This document shows positions 3,361 to 64,000 of a DNA stretch of 64,000 bases, piece by piece. Origin of the DNA: Thuidium tamariscinum (lineage: Eukaryota; Streptophyta; Bryopsida; Hypnales; Thuidiaceae); NCBI GenBank assembly GCA_947034885.2, contig OX344750.2:41774821-41838820 (forward strand). Direction: 5' to 3'. The notes beneath the pieces were generated by a model. That model was not told the DNA's origin, made no database searches, and was given only the letters and a program-made list of their open reading frames with translations. The position numbers and the translations under genes are program-made. Position 1 is the first letter of the stretch. Every line of letters begins with the position of its first letter.

Positions 3361-4761
3361 GTACAGTGGGGTACCAATCAAAATGTCGTTTTCGAATTCG
3401 CAGTGAGAAAAATTTCAGTATTGCCAACTTTGAAAGCCTCCCTAGAGCTCAAAAATTGGTATTTTATCACGAAAGTTTTACTACAGCATTATCTTTAAAT
3501 TAATTATATGTATGATAAATTTTAAGGCCAAAAGATTCACCGAAAAAAAGTTATTTAAACTCTACCAACATGGGTAGTGGTGAGAAACATTTCACTACTT
3601 TCAACTTTGACACCTTCCTAAGTATTGAGTTTTTTTTCTTTTGCCATGAAATTTTTGTCATGAAACAATCTCTATGTTTTCAATATTCATAAAAAATTTC
3701 AAGGTAAAAAAAGTTTTTTTAAGAAGATATTTGAAATCTCCCAACAAGTGTAGTTTTGAGAAAATTTTCACAATTTCCAACTTTGACACCCTCCCAAGGG
3801 CTGAAAAATTGGTTTTTTACCATGAATTTTTTTTTGTGAAGTCATCTCTATGTCAATAATATACTCTCTAAATTTCAAGTTCAAATGAATTACCAAAAAA
3901 AAGATATACAAAATCTCCCAATATGTGTAGTTGTGAGGAGGAGTTTTTGAGCCCTTAGTAAGTGTTATTTTGTGGAGCAAAGTTTGACACGAATGTAAAA
4001 ACTCAACCTCACAACTACACATGTTGAGAGATTTTGAATATCTTTTTTTGGTTAAGTGTTTTGAACTTGAAATTTGGAACATATATTATCAACATAAAGT
4101 TGATCTTATTCAAAAAAATTCATGTTAAATAGACAAATTTTCATCCCTTGGGAGGGTATCAAAGTTGGCAATTGTGAAAATTTTCTCACAACTACACATG
4201 TTGGGAGATTTTGTATACCTTTTTATTGGTAATTCATTTGAACTTGAAATTTAGAGAGTATATTATTGACATAGAGATGACTTCACAAAAAAAAATTCAT
4301 GGTAAAAAACCAATTTTTCAGCCCTTGGGAGGGTGTCAAAGTTGGAAATTGTGAAAATTTTCTCAAAACTACACCTGTTGGGAGATTTCAAATATCTTCT
4401 TAAAAAATCTTTTTTTACCTTGAAATTTTTTATGAATATTAAAAACATAGATATTGTTTCATGACAAAAATTTCATGGCAAAAACAAAAAAACTCAATCC
4501 TTAGGAAGGTGTCAAAGTTGAAAGTAGTGAAATGTTTCTCACCACTACCCATGTTGGTAGAGTTTAAATAACTTTTTTTTGGTGAATTTTTTGGCCTTGA
4601 AATTTAGCATACGTATAATTAACTTAAAGATGATGCTGTAGTAAAAATTTTGTGGTAAAATACCAATTTTTGAGCTCTAGGGAGGCTTTCAAAGTTGGCA
4701 GTATTGAAATTTTTCTCACTGCGAATTCGAGAACGACATTTTGATTGGTACCCCACTATAC
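3361..4761. repeat. Long foldback: 1.4 kb inverted repeat
   Basis: Two arms of about 700 bp are reverse complements centred on position 4061. The ends pair as GTGGGGTACC (3366-3375) with GGTACCCCAC (4747-4756). Open frames at 3674-3859 (+) and 4263-4448 (-) encode the same 61 residues with only three differences, so the arms are very similar. Those frames are by-products of the repeat, not genes. Each arm is itself built of diverged repeats of roughly 200 bp, marked by caactttgacaccctccc and ctacacatgttgggagattt. A transcript would fold into a long hairpin. No target duplication is obvious. Confidence 0.9.
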
Positions 4762-9568: not shown

Positions 9569-12133
9569 TTATCTTTGCATACTTGTGGCATGAATCCACA
9601 ATGGTTCCCTATAGCCTGTGATGGGAGCATTTTCTTTTATAGCTGCATATAATTTATCTCCAAGTGCCTTCACATTCTTCAAACTCCAAATTTCATTATG
9701 TTTTCTTTTGGATTTTGCTAGTTCAGTTGTTGCCTGTTTAGCTACAGCTTCTTCTTTCTTCTCTTGAGCCCTCTTCTCCTTATTTGCTTCTTTCTCCAAC
9801 TTCATCCTTTCTTTTTCTCTAACTACGTCTTATTTCCTCTCAGCTACATCTTGCAGATTTTGCAAGTGTTGCTCTTCTGTAAGCAGAATTGATTTCTAAT
9901 AATCAATCTTTGGCTCCATGCAATGTGTCTTCTTGGAAGGAACCTGTACGTGAGGCAGTTGTAAAAACCTGCTGAAATCAATCTGGCTAGAATCTTCATC
10001 CTGCTTAGGTATGTCATCATCATCGGCACTGCTACTCGCTGAATCCCTTTCTGAGTGATTGTCTTCACTTTCTACTTGGACAAAATAATGTGTGCAGTTT
10101 GGAACATTAGTAGGCAGTTCATCAAAAATTTCTTGAATCTCCCAATCTTGAAGTCAATGTGGCATACGATTTTCGTCTTCCATTTCCATACCCCTAGCTT
10201 CAGCTAATTTGAAAGTTTCACTTAGTCCCATCTTAGCATCCATAGCATGACAATTGATAGGATAGATACCTGTTGCTTGAAAATCCTTCTTTATATTGTC
10301 AACAGTTAATGCTCTCCTAAGAGCGCAATCAACCCATTGTGCCAAATCTTCCTTTATGGGAGTTTGGCCAGTATGATGAAATGACCATTTGTCCCTGTAA
10401 GCCCGGAATGTTAGTTTGAAGGGCTTAAAACAAGAGACATCTAGAGGCTACATGTAGTGTGAAGTTTGTGAAGGAAATGTCAACATCTCTAAGCCTTTGG
10501 CCATTGCTAACTTGATTACATCCAAGGTAACATGGGATCCATGCCCATCTAAAATTAACAAGTGCTTGTTGGATGGAGATAACTCATATTTCTCTTCTAG
10601 TTTTTTCAAAAAGTGTACCATCCAAGATTTAAACAATGCATAGTTCATCTATGCTTTGCTTTGCAAGGCAAAGACAACATCCTTTTCCCCTACTCTCATT
10701 AGAAAGTTTCTAGAATTCTTCTTCCCCTTAAATATGTAGAAGTTGGGTATTTTTCCTCCATCTGTAATGATGCAAGATAAGACAGAGAGCCATTCTCTTT
10801 GATCTGGAATAATCAAATGAACATTTCTAGAACCTTTTTTTGCAATAACATATTCCCCACCATCCTTTCCAGCTTGAACTCCACTCTCATCACAATTCCA
10901 AATTTGATGAGGTGCATAGTTGTGAAGATCATATATCTTCTATAAATTGTCATAGAAAGTTGCTACAGCTTCAAGGTTCAAATGCTTGGCTCTCTTTTGC
11001 TCCAATCCTTGGGCCTTTCTTATTGTCAATTTTGGACGTCTCCTCTTGAAACACTTGATCCAGCCTGGTCCAGAGACTCCATCTTTAAATGGAGTTACTC
11101 TTGTTTGAGTAAGTATGGTTACCATTTCTCTCAATTGTCTTAGATTTAGTGGAAAACCTAGGCTTTGCATTTTAATAAGGTAGTCTACCAATTGCTTCTC
11201 CTCTTCATCTGTCAACACTCCTTTCTTTCTTCTCCTCTTATGCATGGTTGTACCATAGACATGATTCCTCAAAGTGGTTGAAGGAATTCCGTGTTCTGTA
11301 GCTGCAACTCTTAAAGGAACGCCTTCATCTACATCATTTATAGCAGCTTGCAGTTGCTCATCAGTCCAATTTTTGTTAATAAGCTTTATCTTCTGACGTG
11401 TAGGGCATTTGGACTCTGAAATAGACTTGTGATGATGCAAATTTTCGGAAGTTGGAGTACCTTTGTTTAAAACGTCACTTGTTTTTTGATGATGTGCGTT
11501 GAAGTTATTCTTGACGTCCATTGTGTTGTCTTCAACAGATAGAGGCTCCATGTCTTCAGTTGGCCAATCTCTCCTGTCCTCTTGTATTGGTGATGCAGGT
11601 AAAGAGTGACCACTCTTTCTTAGTCGCTCATTGATGTCAGCAACGTAATCTATGCATGTCTCTCCTTTCAAAGTACCCCCATCTAAATTGATGTGCACAT
11701 TCTTTTGTTCATCCTCTAGTTCTCTCACTTCTGCATCGCCATTTTTGCATATCACTTGTCTACTGTGCAACTGCTCCCGTCCCTGTTTCAATCTTGTAGG
11801 TTGCAGCTGATGTTCATTTGATTGCCTCAAGTGTGTACTTGAAGATGGAAAGTTCGCTGGAGTGGGCCGTAGTATTCTTTGTTTACTGATGTCCTCAATC
11901 AGTACTACAGTATCATTCCGAGTAGGTAGTTGTGGAAGGTAGCCATCCTTCTGTAGCTCTAGAATGAGTTGACGCTTCTCCTCCTCTCTTGCCCAATCAA
12001 ACAACTTCTGATTTTGAATGACACCCGCCTCTCCATCATAGTCATAGTCACTACTATCACTACTTCTTGAACTCTCTTGCTTCTGCTAGGAAGAAGCTGA
12101 ACTCTCACTATCTTCATCACTAATGTCACTCAT
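9569..12133 (-). pseudogene. Pogo/Tigger-type DDE transposase, broken by stops
   Basis: One continuous minus-strand frame of about 854 codons starts at ATG 12133. Residues 1-45 are Ser/Asp/Glu-rich. A helix-turn-helix of psq/CENP-B type lies near 254-293 (GVPLRVAATEHGIPSTTLRN), followed by a second CENP-B-like HTH near 308-378 with FPLNLRQLREMV. The DDE_1 catalytic domain follows: D415 in IWNCDESGV, D529 in LLILDGHGSHV, D565 in PLDVSCFKPFK. A Lys/Glu-rich coiled-coil-like tail follows near 768-810. In-frame stops fall at codons 16, 398, 495, 562, 660, 746 and 768; codon 562 replaces the Gln of the family's QPLD motif. There is no frameshift up to codon 768, so decay is by point mutation. The true C-terminus is unsure because another frame is open at 9325-9630. 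Confidence 0.9.
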
Positions 12134-22213: not shown

Positions 22214-23631
22214 GCCTCCCCTTCCCCTCATTTCACAACCTCTTATATACATATATCCTTTGGAGGCCTTAACCATTTTGCTTGTGTTTTGTTTTGAAGT
22301 CTTAACACCAAGATTATTTGATTTAAGTCTTTTGACAAGGGATTCACAGCTTGGATTGGCTTATCAAGGATCCCCCTAAGCTGAAACATTTGATTGAGGT
22401 CCTTATTTGCATCTGGGAAGTTTGGGTAGGATCCAAAATTCCTTTCAGTCCTTGAGTAAGCGGAACTTTGGCAAAATTATCCTAGAATTTGAGGCTCAAC
22501 CCTCTAAAATGGCAAAGCTATCACCAAAATTCTAGGATCCTTGTCTTAGCCAAAAATTCCATCAATTTACTTTCAAAATTCGGGCCTAAGCCTCTTGAAC
22601 GGCAAAGATTTGAACTTGCTCCTATTAATTATCCGGTTTGTTTTGCATAAAAGGGTCTCCCCAGGAGACTCCAAAAATTAGTTTTACTTGTGGCTAGCAA
22701 CTGTCAGGTTTTAGTTTTTTTGTTTCAAGTTCCGAAAATAGACCAGCCAACCCAAACTCCAAAGAGGCAGCTTGTACTGGCCAGTGGACCAGCTAGCAGC
22801 CCTACCAGCCACGGCAGTAGCCCAGCCAACACTAAGCCAGTCACTAACCACAGTTGACAAGATTGATTCAATACAGTACTGAACGATTAGCCAACTCAAT
22901 TAAGAGATGGCTCGGCTATGTATGGTTCCAATTAAGACATTCATATCAGGTTGATTGGAAACCAGATGGGAGGATACCCCAAAGGGTCCCAATTTTGAAT
23001 TTCTTTGAGAAAATACTACTGTCTAGTGTGTGTCTTAGAGGAAAATTTGTAGCTTTGGGATTTGAGATTTGATTGTAGGAAAAAGGATTGAGAATTAATT
23101 TTCAAAGTTGAAGTTAGCCAAAAGGAACAAGTGAGGAGAAATTTGGAAAAAACTCCCTGAAGGCCGTGATACAAAATTTTCCAATTTGGTTTAGGAAGGG
23201 CTAGAGGCCAGAGAGGAGCTAAGGAGTGAGAGTAATAAATCAGGGCAGGTCTGGTCTGGTCAAACTTGAGTTGACTACCAATCCATCAGCCTCCAATACA
23301 ACCAGCAGACTCCCAATCAATTGAAGCATAGCTAAGTACTAAAAAATCAATACAGAAAGGGAGGGGTACTCCAACATACCAGAGCCTTGTAGCAAGATAG
23401 TATACATACAAGTTCAGTTGGTAACCACAACCTGTTGAAGGTCCAATACAAGCAAACTTCCCAAAAAATTTCAATAATTGCAATTGCAAGCTCCAAATTT
23501 AAGTGCACAAGTGCAAGTGAAGGAGTTTGAGGAGGGTTTAAGCATTAGTATTGGGGAAGGAAGAAGGAGCTTGGGTGGTGCAAAAAACGACCATAGAATA
23601 AGTTGACTTCTCTAACCACGAATGTTTTAGA

Positions 23632-23635
23632 TTAA
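23632..23635. other. Empty TTAA target site
   Basis: GTTTTAGA-TTAA-AGACAAATAGA here corresponds to the sequence flanking the inserted element at 54729-55669, where TTAA is present on both sides. This is the unoccupied version of that site. Confidence 0.8.
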
Positions 23636-25369
23636 AGACAAATAGAAAAAAACAAATAAAATAATAATTTGACTTTGAGAAGTTCAAAGGTTTGCCAAAT
23701 TAGAGAAAAGTTGGAAAACCTTAGTTGTAGTGGAATTGACTTTTAAGACCATTTAGTGATTAATTTCAAAAATTAGATTATATTAGGATATTTTATAGAT
23801 TGACCTTGGAAGCCATTTAAAAGAAAAGAAAGGAGCTCAAAATATAAAGAAAACTACAAAAAGAAGTTAAAAGAAAAGAATGAGGTCTTGAAGGGAAATA
23901 CTTCATTCAAAAGTATTTAAGAGTGTAACAAACACCACATTAAAACATGAGAATGTCGAGATGGAAGTGCAGCAAGCGCAACATGGAGAATTTATGGAAT
24001 CACACAAAGATCTTGAAGTCGTCATAATTGAGGTTAGTCTTTGAAAATCCCCTTTCTTCTCATTTTTTCCACAATTTCCTTAAAACGTAGAATTTAGCCA
24101 TTAGTTTTTAATCTAAAAAGTAACACGAATTTAGAAGCTATCCAAAGCCCAACGTCATTAAAAATTAAACAAGATAGAATCAATAAGGAATGTATATCTT
24201 TGAACGTTAGACTTTTGATTAGAAGTAGAAGTAGAAAGTTAAAAGCCATAAACAATTCCAAAGAAAAGTAATTGATAGATAAATGTTGGTGGACCAGATA
24301 ACGAAAAAAATTTACTTATGATAATTTTATTCAAGGAATAATTAGTGAAAATTGGCTTTGATAAACTAGGGAAGGTAAAAGGATAAATCCAAAAGAATTT
24401 GACCATTTAGATTAAAAAAAAAGTTTAACAAGGTAAAATTTTGATGAACCGGTTAGCGGTCAAAATTTACCATAAAAAATCACTTTTATTCTAAAGTCAA
24501 ATATTGAGGTTTTTACTTCTGAAAGGATAAAATTATTCCTCTTTTAACTCAAATTATCTATTCCAGTGTTTAATCAAAGTAGTCAAAATTAGTCAAATAA
24601 TACATTAATGATATTAAAAGATAACCGAAGGAGAAATTAGAGATAGAATCCTATAAAAGACATCTTAAAACGGAAAAAACCCACATCTACTTTGAATTTG
24701 ATCAATTGGTGAGAAAGTTAGAATAGAACAAAATCTTAGCCAAAACTTGCTCATTTGTGTGAAAGTCAAATAGTATTGACCAAATCAATTGAACCTTTAG
24801 ACTCCCATAGATATTAAAAAATAGAAAATCACTAAAAAAAACTTATCCACTTTCGATAGTTAGAACAACCGCAGGTCCGCAGTCAATAGATGAAGTTTAG
24901 AAGGATAAATATCCCAACTTCATCCACAATTATTTGGTAAGGAATTAGGATTAACCATAGGTTTCCTTAACAAATTGGAAAGAATAAAACAAGTTCTACA
25001 AAGTTAATCCAATCCGCTTGACTTTTGAATATCGTTTGATAATACTTAATTGAATTGTCGTAGCTAGTTTCAACCAAACCTTATAGTAAAGTTATTTCAA
25101 CCTAGCAATTGCAAACGGGCTTATTAGGAGTAGGAAATTAGAAAGATCCATTGCTTGGAAGGCGTAATTGGATTACGCGTAGGTCAGATATCCACTAAGA
25201 ATTATCCACAAAAATAGTAGAACCTGGTTGTGTACACTTTATTCCAAGGGTGGGAATAAAGCGCCCACATAGCTTTGGGGAGAAACTGCCAGAAAGTCGA
25301 ATTGATTTACAGTATGGCTCCCAACATTACCACCCATCTGTGTAAGCATGGTCTAATTATCTAAATAAT

Positions 25370-29300: not shown

Positions 29301-29662
29301 TTATATTTGGCAATTTTCATCTGAATTTATGACATGATTTTTTTTAAAAATTTTTAAAATAGAAAATTAAATAGCTATATGAGAATATTATTCTTTTCCT
29401 AAATGGTGCCTAAAATAACAAAATTATGCCCAATTAAGCTCAAAATAGGAAAGACTAAGCAATACAAAAATTTGAAATTTTGAATTAAATTTTTTCTTTG
29501 TAGATTATGTTTTTGTGTATATGGAAAGTTTTGATTCATTTCAATTAAATAAATAATGTGGAAGTTATGGACAATCTTGTTTTTCAAGCAATCTAAGCAT
29601 CTTTTTGAAGAAACAACTTTGAAGGATTTATTATCTGAATACAATTTTTACAATTATCCTAA

Positions 29663-29917
29663 AAGGCCTTATTCGTTATATTGAGACAAAGTGTAGTCTC
29701 AATTTTATCTTAGAGTCGAAGATAAATGGTCATAACTTTTTTATTTTGAGTCTATTTGATAATTTGAGACTTTAATATAGTAATACATGTAAAAACCTTT
29801 AATTGTCCAAAGGTTACAATCTCATTTGATCGTCGGCTCGATGATAAATGACTAAAAATTTTTTAGGGTGAAGTCTCAAAATGTGTAAATTGTCTCATTT
29901 TAATGAATAAGGCCTTC
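29663..29917. mobile_element. Tourist/Harbinger-like MITE
   Basis: A 255-bp element. The left end AAGGCCTTATTCGTTATATT and the inverted right end AAGGCCTTATTCATTAAAAT are near copies, and both continue into GAGACAA. TAA flanks both sides (29660-29662 and 29918-29920), as in PIF/Harbinger MITEs, with one terminal base mismatched on the right. No coding capacity. Confidence 0.7.
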
Positions 29918-29920
29918 TAA

Positions 29921-31030
29921 ATGAAGAGGTTCTAAATGATTAAGTTTGCTTCCTAAAAAAATCTCAATATTAGTATTATTGCATTTTAATTCCATCTTAA
30001 AGATATTAATAATTTAGATTTTCCTTCTATCTCATACCTCCTTCTAATCAACAATTTTAAATAAAATAAAAATTAAGTTATTTTTTACTTGAGTTCATTT
30101 TCTTTACCTAAACTCTCAACTGAATTTTTGACTATAAAAGTTCAAAGTTCAAAACTCTATAGTGCAAAAAATTAAAGTTAACAAGGCTAAAAATAAAATA
30201 ATCTAGTCTTGCAATGTGTTAAGAAACTTGTTTTTCACTTTAAATATAGAGATCTGGCAATCTTTGCAGTCAAAACTTCTGAAATTCTTTTCACACATTC
30301 TCATGCAAAATTAGGTGTAAGATCCTATATTTAGACATTAAAAATAACTTTCAAATTTTTTGACTCTTTACTATTTACTAAAGAAATGATAATTTTGAGT
30401 GTGTTTTTTGCAAAAAAATGGTTTTGGTCCTTAAAAATTTACTATTTAAAATCAAAATTTAAATTTACTATTTACTATTAATTGAAATTTCTAAATATTC
30501 ATCTTAAGTAAATCATATGTTTACCTAATTTCTAAAAATTTTGATTGTTTAAAGAAGATTAAATTTGAAGAGTATTGAATTTGAAAGAAACTGAATTCTT
30601 TTCTTCCCATAGTTGTCCCTTCACCCACTCAAGTAGCCTCTTTACTTACATGCACCCTCAATAACACCCGTAGTTGCTTTTTCCTTATTTTGAGTTGCCT
30701 TTCCTCACCCCACACTCGCTCCTTCCCATAATTACCTTCTTTTGGACCAATAGTCAACCACCCTTTATCTACACACGTTCCACTTGTAGTTGTTGATATC
30801 TTACCCTCATGCTCCCCATCCACAATTACCTTTGGTGACGTGGTTTAGAATTTTCACACAAGACAATTTTTTTTTGCTTATTAAGCATTGAAGAATTTCA
30901 AAAGTTTGGATAATCTCGAGTAGGACAATTTCAAGCTTGTCTCAATTGACCGACACTCGTTATATACAACATATAACATCAAACTAGCAATTTGATACTA
31001 AAATCCAAAAACATATTTGATGGAACAACC
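29921..31030. other. AT-rich intergenic DNA, no gene
   Basis: No feature could be supported. 30600-30830 is somewhat less AT-rich, but its open frame (30629-30823, minus) matches nothing known. Confidence 0.45.
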
Positions 31031-31834: not shown

Positions 31835-32065
31835 GGTGATTGCAAGAAACACTTGTCTTTTTTTTTGTCCCCTTGATTTCCAATAGCGAGGTAGTTTTTT
31901 GCGCATAACTTTTCTATGTTTTGTTCATTTGCCTCGAAATTTGGAATGAAGGTGCACAAAAAAGTTTTAGATGTTGATTAATTTTACCGAAATTTTTAAA
32001 ATTATTTTACTTGTCCATACTACTTATTTACCAAAAATATAAAAATATATTAGGCCATACCTTTT
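31835..32065 (+). mobile_element. Truncated GGTGATTGCAAG-type element
   Basis: Starts GGGTGATTGCAAGAAACACT and stays similar for about 230 bp to the left part of the complete element at 52127-52891 (shared phrases tagttttttgc and aatgaaggtgcaca). The opposite terminus was not found downstream, so this copy is probably truncated or rearranged. Confidence 0.65.
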
Positions 32066-44255: not shown

Positions 44256-44259
44256 TTAA

Positions 44260-45213
44260 CCCCTAAAGCCCTGAATTGTGTTTTTTGGCAACATAAAAAT
44301 TTGGGGCAGCTCACTACTAATGGAGTTTTTTTTTTTTTTTCTTTGAATTTTTTACGAAACATGTGTTCAAGCCTTCAAGGAGTAGCTTTAAGGCCCAACA
44401 ATTTTCATAACTTTCAACTACTCGGTTTAAAAGTTATGGCATCATATGTTGTTTCCTTTGAACTACGAGCAACCTGAGCAGCAAAAAAAACTTCTTTAAA
44501 ATTTATTTTTTTAAGAATTAAAATTTTGAAATAGGTTTATTAGATTTTTATCTATGTGAAAAGCTTTGAATAATTCCATTTCGAGAAATGAGTCAAAAGT
44601 TATATGGAATCTCAATTTGGGAAAGTTCGTGGGTAGTTATAGAATTTCTACTCTACAATAAAGTTTGAACTTCTTTATTTAATTCAGTAATTTAAATTTT
44701 CAAGAAAAAACTAAAACATTGGGTGAAGATTGTTTATTACAATTATTCAACCATTGGAATTGTCATTTTTCATTTTTATAAATCAATTGTTCACAATTTA
44801 GTATTTTCAAGCAATTTCTACTTCTTTCTACTTACTATTTTTTTCTTATAAGTTGTACAATTCCAAATGATTTGAATTTTTTTTACCATATAGCCAACTT
44901 GAATTGTAAGAGTAACCATCATTTTGAGTATTTCTTCATACAAATGTGGCCTTGTAAAGTGGAGATGCCCAAGTTTTTGCAGGGATAAAAAAAGGATTTT
45001 GGCTAGTTCAAACGAGAGTTCAAATCTTCAAATCTTGCAATCTACATGGTGAAAGTTTCTGAAATTTTTCCCACATCTTTCTAAACCACCTAACTACAAG
45101 ATCCTATGGTTAAATGTGTCAAAAAATGTCTTTTTCCATAAAAATTAAACTTGTACTATAAATCACAGTTTTGTTGTGATTTTGGTGGAAATATAGTCAA
45201 AAACCTCTAAGGG
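44260..45213 (+). mobile_element. TTAA-flanked element 2 (piggyBac-like ends)
   Basis: 954 bp between TTAA (44256-44259) and TTAA (45214-45217). The left end is CCCCTAAAGCCCTGAATTG and the right end is CAAAAACCTCTAAGGG. It is homologous throughout to the inverted copy at 54729-55669 (shared: cttttaaaccgagt-type, gttgggccttaaagctac-type and gccaacttgaattg-type blocks). A 74-codon open frame (44253-44477) is not conserved in the other copy and is not considered a gene. Confidence 0.72.
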
Positions 45214-45485
45214 TTAATAAAAAGTGTGAACTAGAAAAATTTCTATAGCTTGAATATGTTTGTACTTTCTAACAAAATTGTTCACAAGTTATTGTATGAT
45301 GCACTGTTCATTAATGAGCTCTTGCAATTCCTATACTTCTTAAAAAAGCCATTTTTCTCAATACTTTATTGCATGTTCAAGAAGTTAAAATGTGCTCAAA
45401 TTTAGTTTTACAATGTCTTAAACAAAGTCAAAGAGGGTGTACCAAAAAATATTGAGACTTCACCTCATTGATGTCCTCCTTGGGG

Positions 45486-49528: not shown

Positions 49529-50790
49529 CTAAAATGAAAAGAAAGAAAACTACATCAAATTGTTGAAGCCCTTGAACAATCTCCTCCTCTTTATAGTTTG
49601 TTTGTTATAATAAAGAGAATGCTTCTTCTTGAAGTCACTCCAATTGACGTCACTTTCTTCTTTATAGTATTTTAATAAAATTCAAATAAAATCTTATTTT
49701 TATATATTGCACGGATTTATAATGCGACAACCATATTACAGTGGTTGCAATATTTAAACTCTAGTATTTCTCCAATGTAACCTACATATTCTTCGATATA
49801 CTCAACAAGTGTCATATTCATTAGACTCCATCGCAATTGTCGAGAGAAAGATGTTGCAACACATAAATCTCAAGTAATTAATATTGCTTCAGAACTTCTA
49901 ACACACAAATGTTGTGTTTAGGATTTTGTCGTATCTAGTGTAATCTTAAATAAGTTAGAAAATAATGTGCTTGCATTCTTGCAACAAAGGATTGGAGTTT
50001 GTACATTAATGAAAACCACCTTGTCATCTTTTGCGGAATGAATCAAGTTAAGGGATTTTGAATTTTGAATTTTGAATCTTAAATTTAGTGTCGAGCATTG
50101 CTTCAATTACGAGCCTAATTATCTCTAGACTCCTCGCATAGCTATGCTTCTAGTTCAAGATGAAATTCACTTTGGAAGTACATTCATTTTTGCTCCCCAT
50201 ATATTGCATTGTCAATTTGCCATTGCCATTTCCTCTGTAGTAGGCATTGTAGCGACTTTTTCATTTGATGAAATTAACCTCAAATTCAAATTAGACCTTC
50301 GTAAAGAAAATCACAAAGATTGATTAGTAATTCAACTATACAACTGTTTATTTTATATTTTGAATAAAATAATATATTTATATTTAGTAAAAATGAATAA
50401 TAGACAAGCAATGATACCAACAAACTAAAAGAAATCAAAAACCTAATAGACACAAAAGAAAAAATCAAAGAGAATAATTTCAACCAATCTAATAAAGTGA
50501 ACTCATCACCAAATGTATAATTCATATTTTTCTTAAAATATGATGTTTACATTTAAATTATTGACCTTATATAAACTACTAGTATAGCTATTTGAAGCAT
50601 CAAAACAATAATCTACACATACACATACATAGACTATGTATACAATTATAATATAATTATATATAAGTATGTAGTATTGATCACTAATTAAGATAAAATA
50701 ATATGATGTATACAGTCAAAGGTTCATTATACTACTATTACCTATGTAAGTAAAGTAAAAACACTAATACTCAATTGCACAATTGACAAC
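49529..50790 (-). other. Decayed sequence with scattered protein-like pieces
   Basis: On the minus strand, short in-frame pieces survive between stops, such as SYARSLEIIRLVIEAMLDT (about 50140) and RWSLMNMTLVEYIEEYVGYI (about 49810), in more than one frame. They look like further remains of the same locus. 50530-50790 holds only AT-rich sequence. Confidence 0.3.
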
Positions 50791-52953
50791 TCAACTTTCA
50801 ACAAGTTTGTTATACACATCCCTCTCCATATTACTTTTAAAAATAGAGAACCACTTGAAAAAATAAGCCTTTTGAAACAAAACAATTTCAAATTGACTTT
50901 TGTCTCTAATTGTCCTTGTACAATGCCATAGGTCCTTTGCTTTGCACATGAAGACATTATCAATGCGAGGAATTGTAAATAACTTTAATCCTGATATGTA
51001 AAATTTTGCCTTGTTGTCATTCTTATTTTTTGTACTTAAATCAAAAATTCAAAAATTGAGAAATAATTCTAAGCCTCGAAATATCAAATATATATCAAAT
51101 GAATTGCATAAATTGATACAAATGAGAAATTGACATACCATTGGCACCAAACCATACAAAAACCAAATGTTACATCATCCGAATCAGTATCGATGTTGCA
51201 ATTGTAATTCCGGGTTATAGACATTGTTGTAAACAACATATTACCCAATGTCACTTTATCTTCTTTGATAATCTCCTCCACTTTAAGCACATCTTCTAAG
51301 TGCAAAAAAATCTTTGGGAATAGCACCCTCAAGTGGTCACTTACCATAGTGGCTATCTATTCCACGCAATAATAGTAATCATGTACATTATGTCGAAATC
51401 TACAAAATTAAAACAGAAGTCATTATAAATATTCATTGAATAAAGTATATTGAATTTTCAAGCGCATTCAAATTGTTGAAAATATGTACAAACCTTCTAA
51501 TATCACCAAATGCAAATCGAAAAATAAAATACACTATTTGAGCATCATGTTGTCTTCTTTTCATGTCCCCTTACTTTATAGGATTTCCTTCTGCCTCAAG
51601 AAAATTAGCTAATTCACTCATGGCTATGAGTGTATTGTCAACAAATTTACCATTTACAAGTAGAAAGTGAAATCCAGATGATCCTGAATCAACACATAGT
51701 AAAGGACCTTTAATCTCCTCAAAACTATTGCTATCTGCATCCAAATCATATTCATAAATCCAAAATGTCTTGGGTCTAGTTAATTGGACTTCCCCTATTA
51801 TTTTCAATTTTTCAATGCCATGATATACAATTTGTGCATTAAAAGCTATAGAAGGATACTCCTCCTTTGAATTAACAAAATGCGCAGTTGCGCACCCAAT
51901 AGATGAGCATTTAGTTTCTTCACATCACGAAGAATACCAGTTTTTCTACATTGTTGACATTTGTACGTCTTTTCAGAAGGCACAAAAATAAGTTTAAAAG
52001 CTTCAAAAAAACGTATATACAAAACTAATTTCTCTAAATGACGATGTGTTTTTCCTATATAGTAGTCATTCAATGATGCATCTGTATTTGGTATAGAACA
52101 ACAGCAAACCAAGCAAAAATGCTTGTGAATGATTGCAAGAAACACTTGTCCTATTTCTTATCCCCTTGACCTCTAACGAGTAGTTTTTTGCTCATGACTT
52201 TTGCATATTTTGACCTATCAACTTGAAATTTGAAATGAAGGTGCACATAAAAGTTTTATATATTGTGTAAATTTTTAATTTTCTTAAAATTATTTTACAA
52301 TTTTTAAATTGCCCCCAAATGGCTGTCTATTTTGGCCATTTTGAAAGTTTTTAGTCCTATTTTTGACTCAAAAATCCGAATTTGAAGCTACAAATTAGAC
52401 AAGTTGGAGGCTTACTACTTTACTAACATTTCAAGGATTGACAATGAGTTTTTATAAAAACAGTAAAATGTCTATTGTCCACATAGGGTCAAAATGACCT
52501 TCCTTTGTACAAATGCTACAAAGAGGGAAAAAAAATTTAGAGGAATTTTTTGTTGTAATATGAGCGCAATTTCGTTTAGAAAAATGGATTCTCTTAAAAG
52601 TAATTTTTTGATTTTTTTTTTAATTATTAAAAATAAAAAGGTCCACAGACCCTTTTTATACTATTTTTTGCTCTCTCTGGCCTATGAAATACTTGTAGTA
52701 CTCTATAGTATTGTATAACACTGCATACTACTATATTGACGGCCCAAATCTACAGGCATGCAAAATCAACGGTTGACATTTGTAAGTGTATGTTAAACGC
52801 ATTATATTGTCAAGATTGCGTAGTACTGCCAGTACTATGTCCAAAAATAGCATTTTGAGCCAAAAATGTGAAGTATTTCTTGCAATCACCCTTGTTTGGA
52901 TCATCTATTGTCAAGTCTTTATTCTTCCCCTTTAATCGATATTTTTGAGCCAT
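50791..52953 (-). pseudogene. TET/JBP-like 2OG-Fe(II) dioxygenase relic
   Basis: Reading from ATG 52953: MAQKYRLKGKNKDLTIDDPN is cut by a 765-bp insertion, then continues with a Cys/His-rich region (HFCLVCCC, and YKCQQCRK near 51950). The frame shifts near 51890 and runs through QIVYHGIEKLKIIGEVQL and GPLLCVDSGSSGFHF to a stop at 51571. Introns 51400-51493 and 51035-51138 have GT/AG ends. The next exons read MLFTTMSITRNYNCN-IDTDSDD-VTFGFCMVW, then FTIPRIDNVFMCKAKDLWHC. This order (FTT..I..N, [H]-T-D-S-D-D, distal LWH) fits the double-stranded beta-helix of TET/JBP-like enzymes, which oxidise methylated or thymine bases. The first iron-binding His is Asp here, and another stop lies at 51357. 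The family call is by motif only; another 2OG-Fe(II) dioxygenase is possible. Confidence 0.55.
52127..52891. mobile_element. GGTGATTGCAAG-type element inserted in the dioxygenase relic
   Basis: 765 bp with ends GAATGATTGCAAGAAACACT and, inverted, GGTGATTGCAAGAAATACTT. It is flanked by the 5-bp direct repeat CTTGT (52122-52126 and 52892-52896). Ignoring the element and one CTTGT restores a continuous reading frame in the host exon (..DPNK/HFCL..), so both boundaries are exact. It has no convincing coding capacity. The superfamily is unclear from a 5-bp duplication and these ends. Confidence 0.82.
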
Positions 52954-54728
52954 CCTAAAATACAAAATAAAAGTGCTAAAAGAAGATACTTATGATCAAT
53001 AATTATACTAAACTTCATGTAAAATCAATTCAATGAATTATAAATTGATACTAAAAATCAGACTACACAAGAATTTTTAGGCATCTTGTGGCATTGCAAG
53101 GTTTAAGCAATAGATCTTGCTAATTTTACTACTCCTAATTGGTCCACTTTGTAGCTGTTTATTTGAATTAACTACTTGCTAAGGTTTTGGCTGACTTTGA
53201 TTGTAACAATCTAAATTGAGGTTCGCTAAAATGGCAATTGAACAAGAAATGAATTAGACTAAGTTATAGAGATTTTTTTATTCTTTGTAAGATGATGAAG
53301 AATTTTAAATTTGACCTAATTTCCTAGCAGATAATCATGGATGAAGTTTGACTACAAAATTTACCTCTAAAACTTCATCCGTTGATTGCAAATATTTTAA
53401 CTATTAGAATTGGATGTTTGTTGTTTGGTTATTTTCTATTTTCTAATCTCTATTGAAGTTTAAAGTTTAACTTGATTTACTCAATCTTAGTTGACTTTCA
53501 TCCAATTGGTTACTACTTTTGATTAAAACTTCATTCTATTCTAACTCCTTCACGATTTGATCAATTTGTAAGTAAATTTGAGATTTTTCAACTTTAAGAT
53601 ATTTTCTATAAGATTCTATTCCTAACCTGTCTTTTGATTTTCTTTTGACCTAATTGATGAATTGTTAACCAATTTTTACTATTTTGGTGAATTTTATTTT
53701 ATTTTAAAAGGGTTTGATTCTACCTTTCCAAAAGTAGAAAATCTTAACCCTTTGAGTTTTGGATAAATGTGAATTTTTATGGCAAATTTTGATCGTTGAT
53801 TGGTTTATCAAAATTTTATTTGGTTAAACTTTTTCTACTCAGGTTAGTCAAATTCTCTTGGTTTTTTTTCCTTTTCTTTTTTCTTTTTGATCAAATTAAA
53901 ATTTCCTCTTTTAATCCTTGGATAAAATTAATTATAAGTAAAGTTTGACCATCAACCGGTTCATCAAAATTTACCTATTAATTACTTTCCCTTGAAAATA
54001 CTTTTGGATTCTACTTTTTACTTCTACTTCTAATCAAAAAATTTCATTCCTTTCCAAAATTACTTCAAAGTAAATTCTAACTTATCATATAATTTTTGGA
54101 ATAATATTATTCAATTCTAACTTTTAAGAATCTTGTTCAATCTTTGGATTTAATATTGTTTTGGAAAGCCATTTAAATTAACAAAACTACTTTTACTTCT
54201 AAGTTGTAAATTCCCACTAATTACGTGTATCCAATTTTGAATTGATTTTCAATACTAGTAGCTAATCCTACTTTCAAGTTTCAATGGAATTATGCAAAAA
54301 AAGGAAAAAAAGGAAAGGAAAATTTCATGCACTAACCTCTATCATGACTACAATCTTTGTGCGCTCCAAAACCTTCTCCACAATGTGCCAACTCAACCTC
54401 CATTTCAATTATTTGGTATTTGAATGTTGTATTAAGTACGCTCATATAATTGTCCGTATTTTCCTTCAACAGTCTCTTTTCTTTTTCTTTCTACTTCTTT
54501 TTGAATTTACCTTTATCTTTTAAGTTCCCTCCTTTTCTTTTCAATAGGCTTCCAAAGTCAAAACATAAAATATCCTAATATAATCTAATTTCAAAATTAA
54601 TTGTTAAATGGCTTCAAAATCAAATCCCACTACTTCTAAGGTTTTCTAACTTTTTTTTAATTTAGAAAACCTCTAAAACTCCTCTGAATTCAAGGTATTC
54701 TCTAATTTATTTTTCTCTTTGTTTTTAA

Positions 54729-55669
54729 TCCCTAAAGGTTTTTGACTATATTTTCACCAGAAATGCTCTAAAACTGCCATTTCTAATACAAGTTCAATTT
54801 TTTTTTTAAAAACACATTTTTGATTTATGTAACCATAGGATCTTGTATTGAGGTGGTTTGTAAACATGTGGAAAATTTTTTAGAAATTTCCACCGTGTAG
54901 ATTGCAAGATATTAGCATTTGAATTGACAAAAATTGTTTTTTTATCCCTGCGAAAATCCGGGCAGCTGCACCTCACAAGGTCACATTTGTGTGAAAAAAA
55001 TTCAAAATGGTGGTTACTCTTTGAATTCATACTTCAATGCAAGTTGGCTACATTCTCAAAAAATTTCAAACCATTTGGAATTGTACAACATATAGGAAAA
55101 AATAAGTAAGTAGAAAGAAGTAAAAAATGAGCCAAAATACTAAATTGTGAACATTTTATTCATGGAATTGAAAATTTTCAATCCCAATGGTTAAAATGTT
55201 GAAATAAACAATCTACACCTTTTTCTTTTCTTTTTTTCCAAAAATATGAAAAATTGAATTAAGTGAAGAATTTCAAACCTTTTTTGTACTGTAGAGATTC
55301 TATAACTGGCCACAAACTACCCCAAACTCAAAATCTTCATAACTTTTGACTCATTGATCAGAATGGATTGATTCAAAGCTTCCCATGTCTGTAAAAAACT
55401 AAAGAATCAATTTGAAATTTCACTATAAGAAAAAAAGTTTTTTTGAAGAAGTTTTTTCAGCTGCCCGGTCTGCCCACTAAGTAAAGAAAACAACATATTC
55501 TGCCATAACTTTTTAACCGTGAAGTCAAAAGTTATGAAAATTGTTGGGCCTTAAAGCTACTCCTCGGTCACACATTGTATCAAAGTTTCAAAGAAAAAAA
55601 AAACTCCATCCGTAGGGAGTTGCCCAAAAAATTTATAATCTCAAAAAATGTTGTTCAGGGCTTTAGGGG
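54729..55669 (-). mobile_element. TTAA-flanked element 3 with proven TTAA duplication
   Basis: 941 bp between TTAA (54725-54728) and TTAA (55670-55673), homologous in inverse orientation to 44260-45213. The flanks, read on the minus strand as GTTTTAGA-TTAA and TTAA-AAACAAAGAGA, align with the single site GTTTTAGA-TTAA-AGACAAATAGA at 23632 in the homologous LTR-like copy. So TTAA was duplicated on insertion, as in piggyBac and a few other superfamilies. The C-rich ends (CCCCTAAAGCCC) favour piggyBac-like. No transposase is encoded. Confidence 0.8.
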
Positions 55670-56769
55670 TTAATCTAAAACAAACGTGGTTAGAAAAGTC
55701 AACTTATTCTAAATGTTGGTTTTCAAGCCACCTAAGTTCCCTTCTCTTTCTTCTCCAAATACTTATATTTAAACCTTCAATACAACTCCTTCACATATGT
55801 TAGTATTTGCAAATTTGGAGCTTGAACTTGTGTTTTAGAAATATTTATCAACATCTATGTGTTCCAGACCTCCAACTAGTTGCTGCTTCTCTAAGTAGAT
55901 GATTTGTGCTTGTATACTTCTTCTTTTAGGCTCTAATATGATGGTATCCCTCCCTACATTGATTTTTGAATTAACTTATTTTGTAACCTCTCAGTCTATT
56001 CACAAGGCCTCTGATGTGATTTGGTTTTTGAAACTTGTGGTCAATTTTGGTTGATGTGAGCGCTTCTAACTTCATCCTCGAGCTAGAAGTTTATCACACG
56101 AGTCCTGTATCTAATTGAATTTTCTCTCTAATTGGGTGTTCAAGAGAGCCTTTCAAGCAATGAACTCTTTTAGTCACGTCTTTTAAGTGTTAACTTTTCT
56201 TCCCGATTCGTTGTTACTCCAAGTCTTCGTGATAGATAATCCTAAGTCTATTTCGGTGTCTAACTAATATTTCCTATTCTAATCTACTGGTCAATTGCAA
56301 TCGTACCTAATCCTAATTCCAAGCATTTGGTAAAAAGAAACTTAGTAACAAAACAATGAGAATAAAAATCAAATGAGATCGATTTACCTCCTCCGCATAA
56401 ATCTCCATAGTCTCGTCGTCAAACATCATCATGTGAAGATATTCTCCCACGACCTCGCCATCAAAATCATCCCGGCTCCCCATCTAATTCATAGTAATTC
56501 TCACGTTGTTGGTCAATTAAATCTATCCTGATTGAAAGTAAACTAAAGGTTATGTAGTGCTAAATTAATTGCGTAATTCTTTATATTCCGAAATTTCCGG
56601 TAATTAGAAAATACTGCAATTCGACTTAATCTACCTATTTGGTTAGCAAATACTCTATTCTAAAGAAATCAATGGAAGTTTAATGGTTGGTTGTTTTTAG
56701 TTTTTTCTTTTGATTCTAAGTTAATATTCAAAATCCAAGTTGATTTAATTATTTTGAATCGGAAATTGT

Positions 56770-63624: not shown

Positions 63625-63930
63625 AATTAGAGGAATAGAATAGGGGATGGTTTTGAGGTAGAATATAGTTTAAGGAATAGTGTAGAATTAGAAAACAATT
63701 AGGGGAATAGTTTAGGGGATAGTTTAGAGGTAAAATATAGTTTAAGGGATAGTGTAGAATTAGAAAACAATTAGGGGAATAGTTTAGGGGATAGTTTAGA
63801 GATAGAATATAGTTTAAGGGATAGTGTAGAATTAAAAAACAATTAGGGGAATAGTTTAGGGGATAATTTAGAGGTAGAAAATAATTTAAGGGATAGTGTA
63901 GAATTAAAAAACAATTGGAGGAATAGTCTA
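63625..63930 (+). repeat. 72-bp minisatellite, about four copies
   Basis: The landmark caattaggggaatagttta starts at 63696, 63768 and 63840, and the variant caattggaggaatagtcta at 63912, exactly 72 bp apart. Each unit also holds tttaagggatagtgtagaat. Copies differ by only a few bases, so the array is young compared with its surroundings. Confidence 0.95.
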
Positions 63931-64000
63931 GGAAAGAGTCTAATTAGAGACAATTAAAGGGGGATAATTAGAAGAAGTAGGACCGGGGAACCAATTGGAA

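Follow-up and report, generated by a model that had tools for sequence, protein, structure and literature searches.

A decayed zinc-finger TET/JBP-like dioxygenase gene and its dispersed relatives in the genome of Thuidium tamariscinum

The window copy

The window analysed here is a stretch of 64,000 nucleotides of Thuidium tamariscinum DNA (C2:41774821-41838820 of the assembly, labelled G000). It holds a broken gene of three exons on the minus strand, running from 52953 to 50764 in window coordinates. The reference for reading this relic is L003, an intact relative of 405 aa at C1:23472783-23474197, likewise on the minus strand. Searched against the window, the L003 protein gives five alignments on the minus strand: aa 1-44 at 52953-52828 (E 9e-5, the last part entering an insertion), and four pieces that share an E value of 1e-152, namely aa 21-100 at 52124-51885, aa 97-231 at 51888-51484, aa 228-311 at 51401-51147 and aa 316-405 at 51036-50767. 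Four reversed family proteins, searched against the window as a control, reached E 0.59 at best. The initial annotation, which placed a dioxygenase relic at 50791-52953, is borne out by this alignment, and the MLFTTMSITRN, D-T-D-S-D-D and distal LWH that it described are all present. The gene ends at 50764, slightly past the 50791 first given, and 52126-52890 is an insertion rather than gene.

Exon 1 opens with MAQKYRLKGKNKDLTIDDPNK (52891..52953, minus strand), which aligns to residues 1-21 of the family protein; the DNA is again homologous to the C1 copy from 52891. The exon is split by a 765-bp insertion with terminal inverted repeats (52126..52890, no strand), delimited by its inverted-repeat pair and by the uninterrupted site in both C1 copies. 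Alignment and translation place two CxxC zinc-finger-like modules and a middle region in the remainder of exon 1 (51494..52125, minus). Intron 1 (51400..51493, minus) is a GT-AG intron of 94 bp. Exon 2 (51139..51399, minus) aligns to a helix region and the first part of the dioxygenase core. Within it, comparison with better copies identifies an Asp codon, GAT, at 51189..51191 (minus) in place of the iron-binding His of H-x-D. Intron 2 (51036..51138, minus) is 103 bp long and keeps its donor GT, with AA at the acceptor where L003 has AG. Exon 3 (50764..51035, minus) aligns to the second part of the core and contains the distal LWHCT, with its His codon at 50925-50923, and FFKW. The exon order first proposed is correct: L003 is an open frame in three exons with two GT-AG introns of 94 and 103 bp, and the introns in the window are of equal lengths. 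Beyond the gene, blastn finds a 3' flank common to the C1 copies (50224..50763, minus), a probable 3' UTR. An open frame at 50286-50546 probably belongs to this UTR, because it lies in the flank shared with the C1 copies and its sole Pfam match is sub-threshold (TM225, E 0.0046). A co-transposed system, which the initial annotation considered for the downstream protein segments, is not supported.

The window copy is an inactivated member of its family. The 765-bp insertion is MITE-like, with 27-bp inverted ends at 52130-52156 and 52862-52888 that are 81% complementary; a degenerate target duplication of 8-9 bp tentatively flanks it, and related pieces occur at 31837-32010 of the window and in L013 and L028. 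Frameshifts fall near 51885-51888 in exon 1 and near 51147-51160 in exon 2, and every exon contains one stop: after GNPIK in exon 1, in VE*IATM in exon 2 and before the normal end in exon 3. The acceptor of intron 2 is lost (AA for AG), and the iron ligand is changed from His to Asp (D-T-D against H-T-D in L003). On the window branch, G>A or C>T accounts for 63 of 111 changes with the C10 copy as outgroup and 42 of 75 with the C5 copy; the corresponding figures on the L003 branch are 11 of 69 and 18 of 107. The coding sequence of the window copy has a GC fraction of 0.325, against 0.399 for L003. The substitution bias and this low GC fit decay by deamination, perhaps of methylated cytosine. 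Because the iron His, the reading frame and a splice site are lost, the window copy cannot carry out the chemistry proposed below for its relatives.

Several other features occupy the window. A 381-aa open frame at 10940-12085 on the minus strand matches HTH_psq (E 5e-8) and a Tc5-type transposase DNA-binding domain (E 1e-6), and is a pogo/Tigger-like transposase remnant. Homology to the C1 copies stops at 53105, where a composite repeat begins (53105-55830); pieces related to it lie at 23481-25156, at 44256-45223 and at several other loci. The homology of window 29.4-30.4 kb to the 3' side of A and B copies (families defined below) was considered as part of a gene and is a MITE, with a copy at 29467-30432; the copy at 8406-9332 of L033 has perfect terminal inverted repeats of 18 bp. 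Tandem arrays lie at 63625-63932 (72-bp unit, 4.3 copies, 92%) and at 4008-4719 (177-bp unit, 4 copies, 72%).

A dispersed family with an intact member

Genome-wide searches covered this plant's own assembly (363 Mb in 19 contigs). Plant features of the assembly include CCCTAAA telomere repeats at the start of C2 (of the three other contig ends inspected, two begin with N and one has no repeat in the stretch read) and 49 matches to chlorophyll a/b-binding proteins. Nine matches to dynein heavy chains, which flowering plants are not known to have, point to motile sperm and, together with the genome size, suggest a bryophyte. A search with a 117-aa middle piece yields 16 matches, at 15 loci, and the 405-aa L003 protein gives at least 107 matches, at no fewer than 57 loci when matches are joined at 10 kb and no fewer than 59 at 2 kb; these counts are lower bounds, with 103 of 135 candidates scored. 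The family is thus expanded in this genome. Sequence was read at 27 of the 57 loci and at L032, which was found only with the Pfam model, and the loci read fall into seven groups, A to G. Family A was read at 14 places, the window included, with other partial copies, such as those at C5:1189895 and C3:6733042, left out. Family B (L029-L031) consists of intronless 433-aa frames, and family G (L045, L046 and L050) is intronless too. The remaining groups are C (L032), D (L041, L042 and L049), E (L043 and L044) and F (L047 and L048). The A and D proteins can be aligned along most of their sequence (E 1e-48), and B aligns with G at E 5e-30. The three family G loci are about 97% alike and differ in their 5' start points, as in 5'-truncated retrocopies.

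Of the 14 copies read in family A, L003 is the only one seen intact. In L002 the frame is broken and the second acceptor lost, L004 and L005 have a stop each, and L008 has a frameshift; of the 13 family A copies in which the region is present, 8 keep HxD intact. Better copies carry the iron-binding His where the window has D-T-D, which confirms the original reading of that site, and a search for homologues with the His restored succeeds: L003 has both H-T-D and the distal L-W-H. Between L003 and seven diverged copies (C10, C9, C6, C5, window, C7 and C10b), dN/dS lies at 0.17-0.26 over 254-404 codons. Stop codons were excluded from this comparison, and a few of the codons next to exon boundaries may be intronic. 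The L003-window pair has a dS of 0.6, and the other six pairs have 1.1-2.0, near saturation. Within the C10/C9/C6/C7/C2 group dN/dS is 0.21-0.66, and in the near-identical C1 pair it is 0.19. The low ratios therefore show past purifying selection, which kept the protein through much of the history of the family.

Domain identity

The relic's own six pieces and its read-through translation match no Pfam family, and the assignment to TET/JBP-like dioxygenases, the central proposal of the initial annotation, holds through the relatives. Tet_JBP (PF12851) matches family A at E 7e-5 and 0.017, B at 5.6e-7, F at 1.1e-4, D at 9.8e-4 and G at 0.11. These scores stay under the gathering cut-off of 34.9 bits, the best being 31.2 bits and another 29.4 bits. 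The profile search suggested at the outset therefore succeeds for the relatives, with significant E values but scores under the curated cut-off, and fails for the relic itself. The Tet-like 2OG-Fe(II) oxygenase superfamily (PF20515) matches D (E 6.1e-5) and F (E 0.0069), whereas the two family A sequences scanned give no match to it at E up to 10, with filters that drop most matches above 0.1. L003 has no NCBIfam match. Other folds, a first guess from sequence, were rejected: six window pieces have no Pfam match, and their PDB matches are at chance level (eL43 at 0.44, PduU at 0.13).

A family profile built from three A sequences and one B sequence was searched, also in a core version, against 177,635 PDB sequences. 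Its first match is CMD1 of Chlamydomonas, with E 3.3e-5 (whole profile) and 9.8e-6 (core). Against the core profile the CMD1 segment reaches 32.2 bits, and the best of 2000 shuffles 9.1 bits. The single sequence L005 has CMD1 as its sole PDB match, at E 0.55. Matches to NgTET are not significant, at E 0.2 and 0.28 for the core profile and 0.42 for the whole profile, where an unrelated phosphoribosyltransferase ranks above it at E 0.17. A later profile that includes CMD1 and NgTET is circular and was used for its alignment only. At the N-terminus, the whole profile matches zinc fingers in the PDB weakly (ZFa at E 0.0011, ZNF346 at 0.012 and Bud20 at 0.013); zf-met (E 1.6e-9) and zf-C2H2_jaz (E 1.8e-9) are strong Pfam matches in family C alone. 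No viral relative was confirmed among 66 pattern matches in viral contigs, and no prokaryotic relative among 23 in prokaryote contigs.

Active-site pocket

The motif table comprises 12 plant rows from the seven groups, including four of the 14 family A copies read; the distal strand was read in 11 rows. Relative to the iron His, Asp at +5 and Trp at +13 occur in 12 of 12 rows and Thr at -8 in 11 of 12. Relative to the distal His, itself present in 10 of 11 rows, Thr at +2 occurs in all 11 and Gln at +10 in 10, the other row having Ser. L003 has the complete iron triad H-x-D ... H, which the window copy lacks, and its T290, W311 and T355 are the candidate residues that would line a CMD1-like co-substrate site.

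The closest known system is CMD1, the 5-methylcytosine-modifying enzyme 1 of Chlamydomonas reinhardtii (PDB 7cy4-7cy8), which takes ascorbate as co-substrate, yields 5gmC and shares the core by profile. According to PMC7854593, His345, Asp347 and His397 of CMD1 bind iron, Asp350 and Arg418 read the base, and Thr337, Trp358 and Thr399 hold vitamin C; an Asp or Asn at +5 contacts N4 of 5mC. Plants keep the spacing of His345, Asp347, Asp350, Trp358, Thr337, His397 and Thr399, and Phe416 and Arg418 are matched in family A. Families A, D, E and F retain a modified form of the base-reading Phe-x-Arg, which was not found in B, C and G; R244, F245 and H249 of CMD1 fall outside the aligned core and have no plant counterpart placed. 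Unlike CMD1, the plant proteins have N-terminal zinc fingers and form a large family, and they have Gln at +10 where CMD1 has Lys. The register of plant +10 against CMD1 Arg410, which is not used for the co-substrate (PMC7854593), is uncertain at a gap in the alignment.

NgTET1 of Naegleria and the animal TETs also have the H-x-D...H iron motif and an Asp or Asn at +5 that contacts the base (PMC7854593). NgTET1 differs in having Tyr at +13 where plants have Trp, Val at +2 where plants have Thr, and the 2OG-binding Arg289 at +10, a position held by Gln or Ser in the plant rows, in alignments that contain gaps. The enzyme type first proposed thus stands as TET/JBP-like, but the co-substrate pocket of the relatives looks like that of CMD1 rather than that of a TET.

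Proposed chemistry and co-substrate

The window very probably holds an inactivated gene from a large family of land-plant Fe(II) dioxygenases that are TET/JBP-like and carry zinc fingers, a reading that includes predicted 5mC chemistry. Living members would fold as a double-stranded beta-helix and bind Fe(II) through H-x-D...H. A flipped 5-methylcytosine would enter the pocket, where the Asp at +5 would contact it and its methyl group would be modified. Selection of the nucleic-acid target would fall to the U1/JAZ-like zinc fingers at the N-terminus.

The co-substrate may be ascorbate rather than 2-oxoglutarate, as in CMD1, with a likelihood that we place just under even, because the 2OG-blocking Trp and the vitamin-C Thr residues of CMD1 are kept and Gln stands at the position of the 2OG-binding Arg of NgTET1. 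In TET2 and NgTET1 an Arg side chain holds 2OG; CMD1 has Trp358 in its place, and this Trp obstructs 2OG (PMC7854593). The equivalent plant Trp at +13 is present in 12 of 12 rows, where NgTET has Tyr in the HMMER alignment and CcTet has Leu339; this argues against an ordinary 2-oxoglutarate TET/JBP oxidase that converts 5mC to 5hmC and beyond, as does the replacement of Arg289 by Gln. Such an oxidase is nonetheless a serious contender, if somewhat short of even. It would hold 2OG in a mode of its own, with the CMD1-like residues ancestral rather than diagnostic, and would oppose the ascorbate part of the preferred explanation only. The Tet_JBP matches in A, B, D, F and G speak for it, and so does CcTet, a 2OG enzyme that holds 2OG unlike other TETs and whose Thr323 is likened to CMD1 Thr399 (PMC11040006). 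CcTet has Gly at +5 and, counted from His326, Leu339 at +13 (PMC11040006).

Mobility of the family

Transposon-borne TET/JBP genes are described for three fungal lineages, and the PU and PE types are reported to come nearest structurally to CMD1, CcTET, NgTET and TET2 (PMC12730594). The plant family resembles the fungal PU, AG and PE types in its multicopy, dispersed TET/JBP-like genes (PMC12730594). It differs in its plant host, in its N-terminal zinc fingers, in HxD against the HxE of the PE type, and in that no transposase was found in the flanks of the two loci scanned and no complete element at the edges examined.

Mobility of the plant family is possible. That the genes are cargo of a DNA transposon, KDZ or other, which would evade silencing by means of the enzyme in the way suggested for fungi, is rather doubtful. 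It would account for a dispersed multicopy family in which copies on C7, C10, C2, C9 and C6 share kilobases of non-coding flank, two copies share a sharp upstream edge (TGTCTCATTGAGACA), near-identical copies of the intronless families B and G lie scattered over the genome, and the unit common to family B copies holds Mlo and Arm gene fragments; the fungal precedent (PMC12730594) also favours it. However, KDZ matches are absent from the genome, in a search run without a positive control and in which the controls were also silent. None of 23 flank frames, all non-TET (14 of at least 110 aa at the L003 region and nine of at least 100 aa at L033), matches a transposase, KDZ included, at E 0.01. 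The edges looked at show no paired ends with target duplication, and two C1 copies sit in a duplication of more than 20 kb, at about 96-97% identity. The KDZ link envisaged in the initial annotation accordingly finds no support in these searches.

The Mlo fragment (E 1.8e-20) and the Arm fragment (E 6.9e-8) were identified in L033, within the unit that two family B loci have in common. L033 and L034, on C7 and C1, share 8.3 kb at 99.6% identity around an intronless family B gene. A kinase-like stretch, without a Pfam match at E 0.01, was seen by eye in this unit, and the unit resembles a recent copy, mobile or segmental, that has picked up fragments of genes. The shared edge c9:10961/16112 was considered as an element end and rejected, because other copies run on past it. 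Several genes are found as close pairs whose two members face opposite ways, separated by a few to tens of kilobases, at C7:19895779/C7:19933562, C8:12552099/C8:12554378 and C1:50528731/C1:50560560.

Nucleic-acid target

The zinc fingers resemble double-stranded-RNA-binding fingers, which raises the question of whether the family modifies RNA rather than DNA. ZFa and ZNF346 are the best zinc-finger matches in the PDB, and zf-C2H2_jaz is found in family C (E 1.8e-9). Such fingers also occur in other proteins, Bud20 for example, and the core is closest to the DNA enzyme CMD1, so that an RNA target is unlikely. Another Fe(II)/2OG oxygenase acting on a protein or a small molecule is very improbable, since, for all that the Pfam scores lie under cut-off, the oxygenase hits consist of Tet_JBP, Tet-like PF20515, CMD1 and NgTET, and the base-contacting Asp is present in 12 of 12 rows.

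Significance

To our knowledge, no plant TET enzyme has been established. Among the titles listed in the literature searched, none concerned a land-plant TET/JBP protein; older surveys of the family by Iyer and colleagues may mention bryophyte members. Plants remove 5mC by ROS1-type DNA glycosylases (PMC11065753), oxidised 5mC is reported from Silene and spruce, and CMD1-like proteins are confined, according to a review, to a few green algae (PMC11066809). What appears to be new here is a land-plant TET/JBP protein that combines zinc fingers with a pocket like that of CMD1, the presumptive vitamin-C residues being kept in seven groups.

Taken furthest, these observations might describe a land plant with a large, partly living zinc-finger family that uses vitamin C rather than 2-oxoglutarate to put a glyceryl or similar group on 5mC. 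A system of the CMD1 type would then exist beyond the green algae, with zinc fingers for targeting; it would be present at 57 loci or more and perhaps spread partly by mobile elements that escape methylation through it, with the window copy as its fossil; we consider this full picture possible but on the unlikely side. Given intact zinc-finger TET/CMD1-like genes in a land plant, it could be tested directly, with named loci and pocket residues, whether plants oxidise or glycerylate 5mC.
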